Assembly: GCA_015232855.1 (NCBI GenBank)
Contig: JADFYW010000003.1
Location: forward strand, 1 to 64,000
Length of the DNA stretch: 64,000 nt
Direction of reading: 5' to 3'
Source: Fibrobacteria bacterium
Lineage (GTDB): Bacteria > Fibrobacterota > Fibrobacteria > UBA11236 > JADFYW01
The notes under the pieces: model-generated
The model's input: only the letters and a program-made list of their open reading frames with translations
Databases searched by the model: none
Told to the model about the DNA's origin: nothing
In this document: in pieces, positions 42,895-58,379 of the stretch
How positions within the stretch are numbered: position 1 is the stretch's first letter
How the letters are laid out: the number at the start of each line of letters is the position of its first letter
Translations under genes and position numbers: made by a program

Positions 42895-42992
42895 GTTCTC
42901 AGTAGTCAGATAATTAATGGCTGCGCCTTTTTTATACAAGAAATGGCGTAGCCACAAGAATAAAAGCTGGTAACTGACGACTGATAACTGAT
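42895..42992. repeat. Interrupted palindromic repeat with ACTGA heptamers
   Basis: GTTCTCAGTAGTCAG / CTGACGACTGATAAC (13/15 inverted match) bracketing GGCTGCGCC...GGCGTAGCC; right arm is a 7-bp tandem. Confidence 0.7.
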
Positions 42993-43018
42993 TACAAAAA
43001 AAGGTGAAATACTCAATT

Positions 43019-43711
43019 ATGCCTGTTTTGCACATATTATCCATAGAAGATGAGCCTGATATTCAGGAGCTTATTCGCTATAACCTTAAAAAGGAAGGGT
43101 ACAAAGTTTCCACAACCCCTTCTTTTGATCCTGCTTCTGAAATTATCCGGGTTAACAAGCCCGATCTTATTCTTCTTGATCTCATGCTTCCTGGTTTAAA
43201 TGGGCTTGAAATTTGTAAGGTTTTGAAAAACAACGCTGACACAAAAGATATTCCGATTATAATGGTTACGGCCAAAGGTGAAGAAAATGATATTGTTACC
43301 GGTCTTGAACTGGGTGCTGAGGATTATATTCTTAAGCCTTTCAGTATCAAGGTGCTTTCTGCCAGAGTTAAAACAATTTTACACAGAACAGGGAAAACCG
43401 CTCCTGAACAGAAAATTGATACCTTAAAAATTGATGCCCTGGAAATCCATCCGGGCAGACATGAAGTACATTTGGACGGGAAGACTCTTGAACTTACGGC
43501 TTCTGAATTCAGTGCACTTTACCTTCTGGCGAATAAACCGGGATGGGTGTTTACCCGCCACCAGATTGTGGAAGGTATACGGGGAGATGATTATCCGGTA
43601 ACAGACCGTTCTATTGATGTGCTTATCGTTGGTCTCAGGCGAAAACTGGGGAATTACGGGAAAATAATCGCCACAGTACGGGGAATAGGATATAAATTTA
43701 TGGATGTATGA
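43019..43711 (+). CDS. phoB: OmpR/PhoB-family response regulator
   Basis: REC 'LILLDLMLPGLNG', winged-helix 'LTASEFSALYLLANKPGWVFTRHQI'; cotranscribed with a PhoR-like kinase. PhoB assignment is from context. Confidence 0.88.
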   Translation: MPVLHILSIEDEPDIQELIRYNLKKEGYKVSTTPSFDPASEIIRVNKPDLILLDLMLPGLNGLEICKVLKNNADTKDIPIIMVTAKGEENDIVTGLELGAEDYILKPFSIKVLSARVKTILHRTGKTAPEQKIDTLKIDALEIHPGRHEVHLDGKTLELTASEFSALYLLANKPGWVFTRHQIVEGIRGDDYPVTDRSIDVLIVGLRRKLGNYGKIIATVRGIGYKFMDV

Positions 43712-45486
43712 AAAAGATTCAGCTATTCTGGAATCTCTATCCCGCTTATTTCATAATTATTGTAATTGGCTTCGGCCTTACTATCTGGTTTTCTACCTAT
43801 ACCTACCGTCAGTTTTCATTTAACCAGACCAGGCAGGATATGGCCTCTATTGCGCGTATCAGTGCAGATAGAATTCAACAGGAACTCAAAACCGGGGCTT
43901 TGGATATCCCTGCTGGTATTTGTGAACACCTCAGTGTCCTTGCACAGGCACGGGTCACCATTATTGAAAAAACCGGGAATGTTGTTTGTGATTCAGAAAA
44001 GGACTCTGATGCAATGGATAATCATAAAGATAGACCCGAATTTATTGATGCCAGAGAAGAGGGTGAAGGAATGTCTATGCGTTATAGCAGAACCCTCAAC
44101 CAGGATATGATGTATGTAGCTGAACCTTTGATGTTTCACACTGGTTTTGAAGGAATAGTACGGATCTCCGTTCCACTCACTTCAATTCAAGCTGTACTCA
44201 ACAGTGTACGGAACAAGTTGCTCTTAGCAGGAGTATTCACCGCTATTTTTGTTGCTGTTATGAGTTGGTTTTTGTCCCGTCATATTATCAGACCTCTGGA
44301 ACAAATGCGGAAGGGTGCAGAAAATTTTTCTAAGGGTCTTTTTAAACATCGTATGCCTCAAACGGGTTCCGTTGAAATGTCAACTCTTGCTCATACCATG
44401 AATAATATGGCGGATGATTTGGGGAAACGGATGCGAACTATTCGCCAACAACGCTCAGAGCTGGACGCGGTATTCTCTTCCATGGAAGAAGGTGTGATTG
44501 CCGTTGATGAGGGTAATTGCATATTCACTTTTAACCCAAGCGCGGCAAAAATTTTAAACATTTCGCCTACTGATGCACTTGGGAAAAATATTTTAAAAAT
44601 TGTCAGGAAGACTCAATTGCTCGAAATGCTTGAGCGCATCCTTTCTTTTAAAGAAACACTCAAAGAAGATTTAATTTTTACTGCAGGGAATGAAGAACGC
44701 TATCTCCAGATTCACGGCACTCGGCTTTTAAATGAAGGGGGAGATAGTATCGGTGCTCTCATTGTAATGAATGATGTCACAAAACTCAAACAATTGGAGA
44801 ATATCCGGCGTGATTTTGTGGCTAATGTATCTCATGAGTTGAAAACTCCTATTACATCTATTAAAGGCGCAGTGGAAACTCTTAATGATGGTGCTATGCA
44901 AAACCCAAAAGATGCTGCACGCTTTCTTAAGATGATTGCTCAGAATGGGGAACGATTGCACCAGATTATTGAAGATCTGCTTAGCCTTTCTCGCATTGAG
45001 CAAAATTCGGAAGAAGGTAAAGTGGAACGGGAACCTACTTCTGTTCAAAAAATTGTAGAAAATGCGATTAACGCTTGTGATATGAAAGCTTTGAATAAGC
45101 ACATTCAGATAATGTCTGAATTTGAATCGGATTGTGAACTTCCGGTTAATCCACAATTGATGGAAGAAGCGGTTATTAATCTTATTGATAACGCTTTAAA
45201 ATATTCAAATGATAAAAAGACCATCAGGGTTAGGGTTACAGCACAAGATGGTGAATGCAGAATTTCGGTGATTGATCAGGGGTCCGGTATTTCAGACGAA
45301 CATCTCCCAAGGCTTTTTGAACGATTTTACCGGGTAGACAAAGCGAGAAGTAGAAAAATAGGGGGGACCGGTTTAGGGTTAGCGATTGTAAAACATATTC
45401 TCCAAGTCCATAAGGGTCATGTCTCTGTTGAAAGTGAAGTTGGGAAGGGAAGCTCTTTTACTTTGCATTTACCATTATTATCCTGA
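43708..45486 (+). CDS. phoR: PhoR-like sensor histidine kinase (TM-HAMP-PAS-HisKA-HATPase)
   Basis: 'RRDFVANVSHELKTPITSIKGAVETL', 'DQGSGISDEHLPRLFERFYRVDKARSRKIGGTGLGLAIVKHI'. 4-bp overlap with phoB. Confidence 0.9.
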   Translation: MKKIQLFWNLYPAYFIIIVIGFGLTIWFSTYTYRQFSFNQTRQDMASIARISADRIQQELKTGALDIPAGICEHLSVLAQARVTIIEKTGNVVCDSEKDSDAMDNHKDRPEFIDAREEGEGMSMRYSRTLNQDMMYVAEPLMFHTGFEGIVRISVPLTSIQAVLNSVRNKLLLAGVFTAIFVAVMSWFLSRHIIRPLEQMRKGAENFSKGLFKHRMPQTGSVEMSTLAHTMNNMADDLGKRMRTIRQQRSELDAVFSSMEEGVIAVDEGNCIFTFNPSAAKILNISPTDALGKNILKIVRKTQLLEMLERILSFKETLKEDLIFTAGNEERYLQIHGTRLLNEGGDSIGALIVMNDVTKLKQLENIRRDFVANVSHELKTPITSIKGAVETLNDGAMQNPKDAARFLKMIAQNGERLHQIIEDLLSLSRIEQNSEEGKVEREPTSVQKIVENAINACDMKALNKHIQIMSEFESDCELPVNPQLMEEAVINLIDNALKYSNDKKTIRVRVTAQDGECRISVIDQGSGISDEHLPRLFERFYRVDKARSRKIGGTGLGLAIVKHILQVHKGHVSVESEVGKGSSFTLHLPLLS

Positions 45487-47634: not shown

Positions 47635-47713
47635 TGTCATCACCCGGCTTGACCGGGTGATCCATCCAAAATCGATACTTTGATGGATTGCCCGGTCGAT
47701 CCGGGCAATGACA
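47635..47713. repeat. Paired palindromic intergenic repeat, copy A
   Basis: TGTCATCACCCGGCTTGACCGGGTGATCCATC ... GATGGATTGCCCGGTCGATCCGGGCAATGACA; two hairpins in inverted orientation. Confidence 0.85.
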
Positions 47714-47787
47714 TATTGCATAATCAAAAGCATTATTTTTGAAAGTCTTAACAAGGACTAATTCATTATTCAAATAATGGAGAAAAA

Positions 47788-52773: not shown

Positions 52774-52838
52774 TGTAAACAGACTATTTTATAGTACTCT
52801 TCATTGAAATTACGCTCAAAAATCAGGGCTAATAAATT

Positions 52839-52882
52839 TCTAATTCTATCCTAACAAGATTCTAACAAAACATATTTATAAT
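52839..52882 (+). promoter_or_regulatory. Putative three-unit Pho box plus -10 (porin promoter)
   Basis: TCTAATTCTAT|CCTAACAAGAT|TCTAACAAAAC (exact 11-bp period), then TATAAT at 52877-52882. Confidence 0.7.
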
Positions 52883-52916
52883 ACAAACAAAACAAAATTT
52901 GAATAGGACTGAAATA

Positions 52917-54023
52917 ATGAAGAAACAAATAATTAAACCAAAGGAAGTCAAATTGAAAATATTATTTATTATAGCAGCCATATTATTTACGGGTGCTATT
53001 GCTGAAGAGGTAAAAGAAAGTATCAAACTGGGCGGAAGTTTCCGTTACCGCCATGAAATGTTTATTATAGATGGGAAGGATAATCGCAATCGCCAACGTG
53101 TGGCAGCTAAAGCAAGTCTTAAAGCCAAAGTAGTTCCTTCTGTCAGTGTCAAATTTGAACTGGCCTCTGGTGGAGCAACGGCCCGTTCCGCAAATGCGAC
53201 TTTGGATAATGCCTTTACCAAAAAAGATTTGTTCATTAACCAGGCAAATTTTCACTGGGCACCTGAGTTTGGTCAAGGGCTTTCTCTTACTGGTGGTAAA
53301 ATGAAAAACCCTTTTGCCAAAGTAGGGAAAAGTGAACTGGTCTATGACAGTGACTTTGTACCTGAAGGTATTGCGCTTCAATATGCAAAAGACTATGGTT
53401 CTCTATCTGCCTTTATGAATGCGGCAGGTATCTGGGTTGAAGAAGAGAGTTCATCAGATGATGTAATGTTATATGCCGGGCAGTTGGGGGTATCACTACC
53501 TTTTGCTGACAAAAAGGCTGCTTTTACCATTGGTACAGGATATTATTTCCATGATGGGTTAAAGGGAACTGGTCCTTATGAAGAAGGTAAATCATTCGGG
53601 AATTCAGCAGATACAGCAAAAGCTCTTCTTGAAGATTACACTCCCTGGGAAGTGTTTGCAGAGTTGGGAATGAAAATCAGTGGCGTCCCTGCCAGTCTTT
53701 TTGGTCATTATGTACAAAACTTTGCAGCTGATGACGATAATGTAGGCTTCCTTGCCGGTGTCACTCTTGGCAAAGTAAAAAAACCGGGTTCATTAGGTTT
53801 CAGAGCTTATTACCGTTACATGCAGAAAGACGCTGTTTTTGCTCTTACCAGCGATTCAGATTTTGGTGGTGGCACAACGGATAATCAGGGTGTTGAGCTC
53901 AATGCAGATGTAGGTATTGCCAATAATATCAAAGGCAGTGTAACTTATTTTATCAATTCAGCCGGGCTTGATAATGGTACGAGTTATCAGCGTGGACAAT
54001 TTGATGTGAAGTTTACATTCTGA
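52917..54023 (+). CDS. Outer membrane porin (phosphate-starvation porin candidate)
   Basis: Signal peptide 'KILFIIAAILFTGAIAEE', beta-barrel pattern ending 'RGQFDVKFTF' (terminal Phe). Confidence 0.85.
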   Translation: MKKQIIKPKEVKLKILFIIAAILFTGAIAEEVKESIKLGGSFRYRHEMFIIDGKDNRNRQRVAAKASLKAKVVPSVSVKFELASGGATARSANATLDNAFTKKDLFINQANFHWAPEFGQGLSLTGGKMKNPFAKVGKSELVYDSDFVPEGIALQYAKDYGSLSAFMNAAGIWVEEESSSDDVMLYAGQLGVSLPFADKKAAFTIGTGYYFHDGLKGTGPYEEGKSFGNSADTAKALLEDYTPWEVFAELGMKISGVPASLFGHYVQNFAADDDNVGFLAGVTLGKVKKPGSLGFRAYYRYMQKDAVFALTSDSDFGGGTTDNQGVELNADVGIANNIKGSVTYFINSAGLDNGTSYQRGQFDVKFTF

Positions 54024-54080
54024 TAAACCAGGATTATTAAAAAAGAGGCAGTCCTAAAAGATAAAATAGGTGCCAGGCAC

Positions 54081-54185
54081 TGTCATTACCCGGCTTGACC
54101 GGGTAATCCATCCCAAATACATTGTAACAATCTTAACTTTTTTCTGGATGTTGGATAGATTGCCCGGTCACGCCGGGCAATGACA
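54081..54185. repeat. Paired palindromic intergenic repeat, copy B
   Basis: TGTCATTACCCGGCTTGACCGGGTAATCCATCC ... GGATAGATTGCCCGGTCACGCCGGGCAATGACA. Confidence 0.85.
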
Positions 54186-54210
54186 TATTACCTTTTCCGG
54201 CTGTGTTTTA

Positions 54211-54245
54211 TTCTGATAACTGAAAACTGATGACTGAATACTGTT
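54211..54245. repeat. 7-bp tandem repeat (NNCTGNN heptamers)
   Basis: TTCTGAT|AACTGAA|AACTGAT|GACTGAA|TACTGTT. Confidence 0.65.
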
Positions 54246-54255
54246 TTAACCAATT

Positions 54256-54299
54256 CCTAATTCACTTCTAACACAATCTTAACATTCCTATTCTATCAT
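54256..54299 (+). promoter_or_regulatory. Putative three-unit Pho box plus -10 (pstS promoter)
   Basis: CCTAATTCACT|TCTAACACAAT|CTTAACATTCC (11-bp period), TATCAT at 54294-54299; same geometry as 52839-52882. Confidence 0.72.
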
Positions 54300-54361
54300 A
54301 TCTACAAAACCTGAAAAGAACATTGTTAGTAAACCGAAAACCAAAAAAAGGAAATAAAACC

Positions 54362-55195
54362 ATGAAAAAAATGATAATCAGCGCAATGTGCATATTTTCA
54401 CTTACTCTCGCAGTTGCGGGGGAAAATCAATTGACCATTAAAGGTTCCGATACCATGGTGCATCTGGTGAGCGTTTGGGCAGAGAAATTTATGAAAGCAA
54501 ATGAGGGTGCGGAACTCTCTGTAACCGGTGGTGGTTCTGGTACTGGTATTGCGGCTCTTATTAATGGTACTACGGACGTTTGTGCGGCTTCCCGAACGAT
54601 TAAAGAAAAAGAAATAAAATTAGCTAAAAAACGGGGAACTACTCCAATGGAACATGTGGTAGCCAGAGATGGTATTGCAGTAGTTATCCATCCTTCAAAC
54701 CCGATTAATGAACTCACAATCGATCAAATCGGGAAAATTTACACAGGTGAAATTACCAATTGGAATCAGGTTGGTGGTGAGGACCACAAAATCCTTGTGC
54801 TTTCACGGGAATCAAGTTCAGGCACATATGTATTTTTCCAGGAACATGTATTAAAGAAACACGATTATACTCCCAAGGCCAGACTGATGCCTGCTACTTC
54901 TTCTATTGTTCAATCTGTTTCAACAGATAAATTTGCTATAGGTTATGTTGGTCTTGGTTATGCAGAAAAAGCTGCTGATAAGATAAAGGCCATCAACGTT
55001 AAGAATGACGCAAAATCACCAGCAGTGAAACCATCCGAAAAAACAGTTGTTGACGGTTCTTATTCAATCGCTCGCCCTCTTCATTTATACACCAAAGGCG
55101 AGCCAGAAGGGATCACAAAAAAGTTTCTCGACTATGCCTTTTCCAAAGAAGGCCAGAACATTGTTGTTGAAACAGGGTATGTAGCAGTCAAATAA
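54362..55195 (+). CDS. pstS: Phosphate ABC transporter substrate-binding protein PstS
   Basis: 'LTIKGSDTMVHLVSVWAEKF', 'GGGSGTGIAALINGTTDVCAASR', 'SRESSSGTYVFFQEHVL'. ATG 54362 with SD aaagga. Confidence 0.95.
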   Translation: MKKMIISAMCIFSLTLAVAGENQLTIKGSDTMVHLVSVWAEKFMKANEGAELSVTGGGSGTGIAALINGTTDVCAASRTIKEKEIKLAKKRGTTPMEHVVARDGIAVVIHPSNPINELTIDQIGKIYTGEITNWNQVGGEDHKILVLSRESSSGTYVFFQEHVLKKHDYTPKARLMPATSSIVQSVSTDKFAIGYVGLGYAEKAADKIKAINVKNDAKSPAVKPSEKTVVDGSYSIARPLHLYTKGEPEGITKKFLDYAFSKEGQNIVVETGYVAVK

Positions 55196-55212
55196 CAAAA
55201 GAAATAAAATAG

Positions 55213-56076
55213 ATGAAAGAAAAAATCGTAAAATATATCCTGGTAAGCGCTGCTTCTACCAGTATAATTATTGTCTTTCTGATTTTTCTCTTTCTTATAA
55301 AAGAAGCCGTTCCTTTTATTGAAGACCCGGGGATGTCCCATTTGTTTAAAAGTAAATGGAATCCGGTTTCTTTTTTTAATGAATCTTTTGGCTTATTACC
55401 CCTTATCACCGGTTCTCTGCTGGTCACCTTTATGGCCACTATCATAGCAGTCCCTTTCGGAGTGATTGCTGCGGTCTATATATCAGAAATTGCTGGTTCC
55501 CGTGAACGGGAAACCTTAAAACCCTTTATTGAATTGCTGGCCGGGCTTCCCTCGGTGGTACTTGGTTTTTTTGGGCTTATTGTTTTATCACCTATAATTA
55601 AAGAACTATTCCATCTCGATAGCGGACTAAGCGCATTAACTGGAGCGGTAATCCTTGCTATGATGGCAGTCCCCACGATAATTTCTGTTTCTGAGGATGC
55701 TATAAGGGGGGTACCCCTTGCCTATAAACAGGCATCCATGGCACTTGGGGCCACTAAGCTGCAGACCATTTGGAGAGTTATTGTTCCTGCTTCTTTGTCT
55801 GGTATTATTGCCGCTATTATGCTTGGTATTGGTCGGGTCATAGGAGAGACCATGGCGGTCCTCATGGTCACAGGCAATGCACCCCTGGTTACGCTCAACC
55901 CTTATGAATCTGTTCGCACGATGACTGCAACCATTGCGGGGGAGATGGGAGAGGTGCCCTTTGGCAGTGCTCATTACAGTGCTTTATTCTGGGTGGGAAT
56001 CGTTTTACTTCTTATGACCTTCTGCCTGGTAGTTATATCTCAGAAGGTTCTTAAAAAATACAGTTTTGAAGCATGA
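55213..56076 (+). CDS. pstC: Phosphate ABC transporter permease PstC
   Basis: 'ELLAGLPSVVLGFFGLIVL', 'GIGRVIGETMAVLMVTGNA'. Confidence 0.95.
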   Translation: MKEKIVKYILVSAASTSIIIVFLIFLFLIKEAVPFIEDPGMSHLFKSKWNPVSFFNESFGLLPLITGSLLVTFMATIIAVPFGVIAAVYISEIAGSRERETLKPFIELLAGLPSVVLGFFGLIVLSPIIKELFHLDSGLSALTGAVILAMMAVPTIISVSEDAIRGVPLAYKQASMALGATKLQTIWRVIVPASLSGIIAAIMLGIGRVIGETMAVLMVTGNAPLVTLNPYESVRTMTATIAGEMGEVPFGSAHYSALFWVGIVLLLMTFCLVVISQKVLKKYSFEA

Positions 56077-56924
56077 ATAAATCATTCTATGAAAATATGA
56101 TAGTCTGGGGCATGCGCCTCTTAACCTATTCGGTAGTATTCGTTGTTGCTTATATCATTCTCGATATTGTCTGGAAAGGCCTTCCTGTTATTAACTGGGA
56201 GTTTCTGTCAGCTTTCCCACGTAAAAGCGGAGAAGAAGGGGGGATCTTACCTGCAATTGCTGGGACGCTTTTTTTGGTGATGGGTACTATTCTGGTCGCG
56301 CTTCCTCTGGGAATGGCAAGTGCTATTTATCTCACTGAATATGCAAGACAAGGACGTTTTACTAATATCGTCCGTTTGGCAATTGTTACCCTTGCAGGTG
56401 TACCTTCTATTGTATATGGACTTTTTGGCCTTGGTCTGTTTGTGATTTTTTTAAAATTTGGAACTTCAATTGTGTCTGGGAGCCTTACTCTGGCTTGTAT
56501 GGTGCTGCCCATCATCATTGTGACCAGCGAAGAAGCCCTGAAGTCGGTACCTCAAAATTTGCGTGAAGGGAGTCTCGCCCTGGGTGCCACCAAATGGCAG
56601 ACTATATATAAAAACGTACTTCCCTATTCGATTCCTGGTATGTTAACAGGGTCTATCCTGGCTGTTGGACGGGCAGCGGGGGAGACTGCACCGATACTTT
56701 TGACAGCTGCTGCGTTCTTTTTGCCCCATTTACCCACCTCAATATTTGACCAGGTAATGGCACTACCTTATCACTTATATGTGCTTGCGACCCAGCATCC
56801 GGATATAGAGAAAGTGCGGCCCATGCAATACGGGACTGCCCTGGTATTAATAGCTCTGGTGCTGGGGTTTAATACAGTCGCGATATTTATGCGTATACAA
56901 CTTAGAAAAAAGTACAGATGGTAA
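56073..56924 (+). CDS. pstA: Phosphate ABC transporter permease PstA
   Basis: '[19 protein letters not shown]', '[20 protein letters not shown]'. Confidence 0.96.
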
Positions 56925-56931
56925 TATTATA

Positions 56932-57711
56932 ATGATAGTTCAAAAGACGATAATAGAAAACCCCAAAATACATTCACGGAATCTTAATTTTTATTATGGT
57001 GATGTACAGGCGCTTTTTGATATTAACCTCCAATTACCCGATAAGCTGGTGACAGCGTTAATTGGGCCGTCTGGTTGTGGGAAAAGTACTTTTCTAAGAA
57101 CACTGAACCGTATGAATGATATTATTGATGGAACCCGGGTTGAAGGTAAGGTAACCATTGATGACAAAGATATTTATGATAAACATGTGGATGTAGTCAA
57201 ATTGCGGAAACGTGTGGGAATGGTGTTTCAGAAGTCTAATCCTTTCCCCAAATCTATTTTTGATAATATTGCCTATGGCCCTAAAATTCATGGAACAAAA
57301 AGTAAAGAAGAACTTGCTCTCATTGTTGAAAAAAGTTTAAAGGAAGCCCTTCTTTGGGACGAGGTGAAGGACCGGCTTCATGTAAGTGGTCTAAGTCTTT
57401 CCGGTGGTCAACAGCAGCGTTTATGTATAGCAAGAGCTTTGGCGGTGAATCCTGAAATATTGTTAATGGATGAACCTACTTCTGCTCTTGACCCTCGTGC
57501 AACCGCGGGCATCGAAGAATTAATTCGGGAATTAGCAGGGAGTTACACTATTGTAATTGTAACCCACAATATGCAACAGGCAGCCAGGGTTTCAGATTAT
57601 ACAGCCTTTTTCTATGAGGGTAAGCTGATTGAGTATGATAAGACGAAAAAGCTTTTTACTACGCCGGCAGAAAAACAAACAGAAGATTATATTACCGGCA
57701 GGTTTGGTTAA
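56932..57711 (+). CDS. pstB: Phosphate ABC transporter ATP-binding protein PstB
   Basis: Walker A '[19 protein letters not shown]', '[16 protein letters not shown]', '[12 protein letters not shown]'. Confidence 0.98.
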
Positions 57712-57725
57712 CTAAAGGAAACAAT

Positions 57726-58379
57726 ATGAGTAATCATCTTCTCAGAGATATCCAGCATTTGGAAAAACGTATGCTCTATTTTTGTACGCTGGTTGAAGAA
57801 AACCTCACCCGGGCTGTTGAAAGTTTGGAAAAGCATGATGAAGAAAAGGCGATGATGGTAATTGCCCAGGAAAAGCAAATTGATAATCTTGAAATTGAAA
57901 TTGAGGAAGAATGTCTTAAAATCCTCGCCCTGCATCAGCCAGTAGCTAAGGATCTGCGCTATATTGTAGCGGTACTTAAGATAAATAATGACCTTGAACG
58001 TATAGGTGATATGGCGGCCCATATTGGAGAGCGCTTTTTGTCCCTTGGTTATTGTCTCGAAAAATCATATTTCAACAAACTCACTCAATGCGCCAGGGAC
58101 GTTAGAAGAATTCTGCATAACTGCCTGGATGCGCTCATTGGTCTTGATAAAGAATTAGCCCAACAGATTCTTCTCTGGGACACAGATATTGATACCTTCC
58201 ATGAGGAATTTTTTAACGAAATCCAGCAGGAAATAAAAGAAAACCCCCAGGATGTGCATGTACTGCTGAATCTCCTCTCCATTTCAAAGCAGCTGGAGCG
58301 CATTAGTGACCACGCGACTAATATCGCCGAAGATGTGATTTATCTGGTGGATGGAGAGATTGTGCGACACAGCGGTTGA
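57726..58379 (+). CDS. phoU: Phosphate signaling complex protein PhoU
   Basis: 'IDNLEIEIEEECLKILALHQPVAKDLRYIVAVLKINNDLERIGDMAAHI'. Confidence 0.96.
   Translation: MSNHLLRDIQHLEKRMLYFCTLVEENLTRAVESLEKHDEEKAMMVIAQEKQIDNLEIEIEEECLKILALHQPVAKDLRYIVAVLKINNDLERIGDMAAHIGERFLSLGYCLEKSYFNKLTQCARDVRRILHNCLDALIGLDKELAQQILLWDTDIDTFHEEFFNEIQQEIKENPQDVHVLLNLLSISKQLERISDHATNIAEDVIYLVDGEIVRHSG

Follow-up and report, generated by a model that had tools for sequence, protein, structure and literature searches.

The 64,000-nt stretch of Fibrobacteria DNA analysed here (the window) carries a porin gene followed by the pstSCAB-phoU operon, each preceded by an array of direct repeats on an 11-bp period, and we read both arrays, with a probability of about 0.92, as PhoB-type operators (Pho boxes) to which PhoB would bind at low phosphate, inducing the porin and pstSCAB-phoU together. 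Arrays with the same exact spacing stand before phosphate-uptake genes and recur in relatives and in other phyla; the arrays, their targets, their spacing and their multi-phylum recurrence together lead to this reading. In the mechanism that we propose, phosphate shortage would cause PhoR to phosphorylate PhoB, whose dimers, two to an array, would sit head to tail on the four 11-bp repeats, substitute for a -35 element and bring RNA polymerase to a -10 hexamer that begins 16 nt from where the last repeat starts. This would switch on the porin and the pstSCAB-phoU operon together and, as a consequence, more phosphate would enter across the outer membrane while high-affinity uptake would operate across the inner one. 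From the sequence we infer the identity of the regulator, its binding as the PhoB encoded at 43.0 kb, the direction of regulation and the substrate of the porin. The analysis offers a usable Pho-box pattern for little-studied phyla (three YYTAAY units plus TAnnnT at offset 16), would tie an uncharacterised Porin_5 protein to phosphate uptake, and opens a natural comparison for half-site choice by the helices of the OmpR/PhoB family.

Genes and arrays in the window

The porin, pst, phoU, phoB and phoR genes lie on the forward strand, on which the two arrays and their -10 hexamers are also read. The porin gene (52917-54023) was assigned by Pfam, its product matching Porin_5 (PF16930) and giving no match to PF07396 (Porin_O_P, the phosphate-selective OprP/OprO type). 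It is followed by pstS, encoding the phosphate-binding protein (54362-55195; ORF and Pfam), and by pstC, pstA, pstB and phoU (55213-58379), of which phoU was assigned by Pfam and the other three by matching the neighbours of pstS in other genomes. Pfam also identified the presumed regulator gene phoB (43004-43711; Response_reg and Trans_reg_C) and the presumed sensor kinase gene phoR (43708-45486; sCache-like, HAMP, PAS, HisKA and HATPase), so that a presumably cognate PhoB-PhoR pair is encoded at 43004-45486, in the same window as pst. An Rfam scan of the window returned no match.

Direct reading of the sequence combined with pattern searches revealed a four-unit array in the porin promoter (52828-52871), with units starting at 52828 (GCTAATAAATT), 52839 (TCTAATTCTAT), 52850 (CCTAACAAGAT) and 52861 (TCTAACAAAAC), and a putative -10 hexamer, TATAAT, at 52877-52882, whose first base lies 16 nt beyond that of the last unit. 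The pstS promoter has the same organization, with a four-unit array at 54245-54288 whose units start at 54245 (TTTAACCAATT), 54256 (CCTAATTCACT), 54267 (TCTAACACAAT) and 54278 (CTTAACATTCC), and a putative -10 hexamer, TATCAT, at 54294-54299, again at an offset of 16 nt from the last unit, counted start to start. The earlier note had located the arrays and the -10 hexamers correctly to the base; it had counted three units per array, and these three are present, but a fourth in-register unit lies upstream of each (52828 and 54245), making both arrays four-unit.

The consensus of the two arrays is YYTAAYA on an 11-bp period, that is, direct repeats of about 7 conserved bp as in Pho boxes, and the arrays replace the -35 at a fixed distance from the -10, with an offset of 16 at all three sites of this genome (the third is described below). 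Searching the window for three YYTAAY units on a period of 11 with at most one mismatch gave five matches, every one inside the two arrays, for 0.23 expected from shuffles, and none of 100 window shuffles reached five. In 2 Mb of first-order Markov sequence having the composition of each upstream region, two arrays arose, none of them with a -10 at offset 16. The window scan found no array before the window's own phoB, its metallophosphatase or its TonB receptor; the lack of one at phoB, where several relatives have an array, counts against the Pho-box reading.

Exact matches in the genome

Enrichment of the pattern at phosphate genes, for which the earlier note had proposed a genome scan, was found by pattern searches of the 5.38-Mb assembly (about 80% complete), with the reversed pattern as control. 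Three exact YYTAAY units matched five times in the assembly: three matches fall in the two arrays of the window, one on contig C27 and one on contig C255. When TAnnnT at offset 16 is also required, exactly three places remain in 5.38 Mb, before the porin, pstS and a PiT transporter, so that 3/3 exact matches with a -10 precede phosphate-uptake genes. The C27 array, read on its own strand, comprises the four units GTTAAGAATAT, TCTAATACAAT, CCTAACTAAAC and CCTAACATTAA, followed by TTTTTTAACTT with TAACTT at offset 16, and is directed towards the gene for the PiT-family phosphate transporter (PF01384); judged by its sequence, it is part of the same small predicted regulon as the porin and pstS arrays. 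The porin array has the highest score of the three sites, and its -10 is a perfect TATAAT. The C255 match was considered as a Pho box and rejected: it has no -10, a Laminin_G protein is encoded downstream, and it is probably due to chance.

With one or two mismatches allowed, the pattern was no commoner in this genome than its reversed control; only exact matches are therefore informative, relaxed ones were not used as evidence, and weaker members of the regulon cannot be listed by pattern search. The exact pattern of three units plus -10, 44 bp in length, searched over 12 genomes (about 60 Mb) gave a single further match, for none with the reversed control, and this site, before the porin-pstS pair of genome G045, is a four-unit array with its -10 at 16. 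Two findings, the exact-match sites at phosphate genes and the recurrence in related genomes of a porin gene immediately ahead of pstS, make it very likely that the porin is a member of the Pho regulon, as the earlier note had proposed.

The PiT transporter itself (L013 2617-4863, on C27; 748 aa) carries, C-terminal to its PHO4 domain, a long extension that looks like a helical domain of the PhoU type. Divergently from its gene, and sharing the intergenic region that carries the array, lie genes for a TatD-like hydrolase, a phosphodiesterase-family protein and a sugar-phosphate cyclase-like protein (L013 5100-8810), a set that we take to recall the ebo cluster.

Arrays in relatives and in other phyla

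Most genomes of the nearest sequenced family have a porin gene directly before pstSCAB-phoU, and upstream of this porin an 11-bp-period array built on another half-site, TGAAACA, in three copies; it occurs in 7/10 genomes, once in each and always on the pst contig, with no control matches. These arrays resemble those of the window in having three units on an 11-bp period before a porin that heads a porin-pstSCAB-phoU operon, and differ in their half-site, in a PhoB helix (VTVTRLREKI) that keeps R201 and in having no clear TAnnnT -10 at offset 16. Directly before pstS, most genomes of the same order have no array, because the array there precedes the porin and uses the other half-site. Of the porins found ahead of pstS in the same order, one is a Porin_O_P protein (PF07396, phosphate-selective) and another gave no Pfam match, the window's being a Porin_5 protein; porins of different families thus seem to occupy this position, and in several other phyla pstS is preceded by relatives of the window porin that are Porin_5-like.

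The sister class of the phylum, one member of which is named Chitinivibrionales and has a PhoB identical to that of genome G088, was searched for three YCTAAY units with at most one mismatch, and 18 sites were checked one by one. Seven of the 18 lead directly into genes for phoB, PiT (PF01384), Na/Pi cotransporters (PF02690, two), pstB, a Pst-type permease and a PstS-type protein. An eighth site is found at a distance of about 0.8 kb upstream of pstS. Control matches were about a third as frequent (7 vs 19), so several of the other ten sites are probably chance matches.

A PstS alignment used as query retrieved 80 loci from many phyla, and in this set YYTAAY arrays are repeatedly found close to pstS or phoB, for two control matches in all; many pstS loci of this survey have no such array, and five loci (L134, L147, L149, L153 and L209) have one before phoB. 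TAnnnT stands at offset 16 in 19 of 37 arrays, every other offset being represented at most 7 times and a second peak falling at 27 (16 + 11); leaving out this genome and G045, the count at offset 16 is 15 of 33. The box is therefore not lineage-specific, contrary to what the earlier note had suggested: YYTAAYA arrays of 11-bp period and equal -10 spacing stand before pst and phoB genes in many phyla, and boxes of this type are already published as cyanobacterial YTTAAYYW (PMC13226834, PMC1906773) and Bacillus TT(T/A/C)ACA (PMC6327384). The -10 spacing given in that note, in contrast, agrees with this independent multi-phylum test.

Could the repeats be bound by an OmpR/PhoB-family regulator other than the PhoB encoded at 43.0 kb, for instance a KdpE-like protein? 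KdpE itself recognises TTTA(T/C)A repeats, and the genome has 77 response-regulator matches, among which another OmpR-family binder is possible in principle. Half-sites within the family also resemble each other (PMC3264566), but every exact site with a -10 lies at phosphate-uptake genes, relatives with the same type of PhoB have arrays before phoB itself, and phoBR and pst share the window, which makes a different binder very unlikely. We consider it just as improbable that only the pstS array functions, the porin array being a decayed or accidental copy before a porin that is not phosphate-regulated: the porin does match Porin_5, outside the phosphate porin family, yet its array is the best-scoring of the three with an intact -10, and both G045 and the nearest family carry an array before a porin that heads a porin-pstS pair. 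As to whether the pstS array arose by duplication of the porin array, the two match poorly in their spacers when compared by eye. Chance repeats in A/T-rich intergenic DNA can be dismissed: relaxed matches are no commoner than reversed-pattern controls, but exact matches with a -10 occur only at phosphate genes (none in controls), shuffles give none, and the -10 spacing conserved across phyla, together with the controlled exact-match search, already contradicts this explanation.

Comparison with known Pho boxes

Read as PhoB-type operators, the sites are a known kind of Pho box (YTTAAY-type), which the analysis follows to a third target and into many phyla. The cyanobacterial SphR box YTTAAYYW consists of 8-bp repeats with 3-nt spacers, in two to four units overlapping or upstream of the -35 (PMC13226834; examples in PMC1906773). 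The arrays of this genome resemble it in their 11-bp period and TTAAY core, of which they share TAAY with the SphR-type half-site, and the pstS2 box of Synechocystis, CTTAATTCtatCTTAATTT, closely resembles that of the porin; they differ at unit position 2, which is C in 9/12 units of this genome (YCTAACA) and T in the cyanobacterial consensus, and in their presumed regulator, which falls in a PhoB clade of its own in a tree built without SphR itself. The Bacillus PhoP box is composed of four repeats on an 11-bp period. Its TT(T/A/C)ACA units form tandem repeats at or downstream of the -35 of phosphate-controlled promoters (PMC6327384); the arrays here have similar TTAACA-like tandem repeats, with a C at position 2 in most units and a regulator of a different lineage. 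The Escherichia coli PhoB box, CTGTCAT, is arranged as tandem 7+4 bp repeats that replace the -35 at a fixed distance from the -10 (PMC4415409, PMC1906773), a layout found again here. The two boxes differ in their core (TAACA here vs TGTCA), the YYTAAYA units of the arrays failing to match the CTGTCAT half-site consensus; in the gap from the last 7-mer to the -10, 9 nt here (8 if the unit is aligned as CTAACAn) vs 10 bp; and in the regulator, the PhoB encoded here lacking the base-contacting R201.

PhoB recognition helix and half-site variation

In E. coli PhoB, bases are contacted by T194, V197, R201 and R219 (PMC3264566). The recognition helix of the window PhoB, DRSIDVLIVGLRRKL followed by TVRG, has G at 201 (R201 in E. 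coli) and V at 200 (R200 in E. coli), and R219 is kept. These residue numbers come from an alignment to E. coli PhoB. Genome G045 encodes a PhoB of the R201 type. Helices of this V/A/T/L-G/S type form one clade in the PhoB tree (97/83), whose members come from Fibrobacterota, Zixibacteria, Neomarinimicrobiota, Ignavibacteria, a Planctomycetota member and others. In the genomes that yielded a PhoB together with an array, C occupies unit position 2 in 27/45 units with a PhoB of this type and in 0/30 with other PhoBs; a Fisher comparison of C:T at this position sets 27:15 against 0:27, but we make no use of its P value because units and sites within a genome are non-independent and the PhoB type is a single clade. 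The arrays that accompany the Ignavibacteria PhoB (VHIVSL) mix C and T at position 2, which calls for caution against a simple one-residue rule. As the clade has one origin and units within a genome are non-independent, the link between helix type and C at position 2 is a correlation, to be taken as a lead rather than a demonstrated code.

On the sequences compared, lineage variation is thus finer than the type of box: the nearest family uses TGAAACA, and C at position 2 goes with the PhoB clade lacking R201. A tentative scenario, to which we give somewhat less than even odds, is that this multi-phylum clade lost the base-contacting R201 (V/A/T/L-G/S in place of R-R), that its box shifted to C at position 2 (YCTAACA) and that the neighbouring family moved to TGAAACA, with repeat geometry and core targets remaining fixed. 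If true, these changes would together provide a natural series of regulator-operator co-evolution.

Other features of the locus

The PstS, PstC and PstA proteins (window 54362-56924) share about 60-78% identity with their counterparts in Zixibacteria, Neomarinimicrobiota, Phycisphaerae and others, but mostly 38-52% with those of the same class; being closer to other phyla than to the same class, they suggest either an exchange of the pst operon across phyla or an ancient, divergent copy of it. A heptamer, ACTGnnn, is repeated three or four times at 42973-42990 and 54219-54243, ahead of phoB and ahead of the pstS array, and at no other place in the window (3 matches vs 0.01 expected).

The gap between the porin gene and pstS (54023-54362) measures 339 nt, compared with roughly 45-90 nt in several relatives, and contains a converging pair of REP-like palindromes (54080-54186, outside the operator) as well as the separate Pho promoter of pstS; possibly a single operon was broken up by an insertion, giving two units under phosphate control, the porin and pst. 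The palindromes, GGATTGCCCGGTCnnnCCGGGCAATGAC, are found in the window at 47643-47714 and 54080-54186 and, with at most two mismatches, in 131 copies across the genome, with no control matches. Copies often form opposed pairs about 50-75 bp apart and show compensatory stem changes (TTG/CAA, TTA/TAA, TCG/CGA, TTC/GAA), and the genome encodes two Y1_Tnp (PF01797) proteins that could be RAYT-like.
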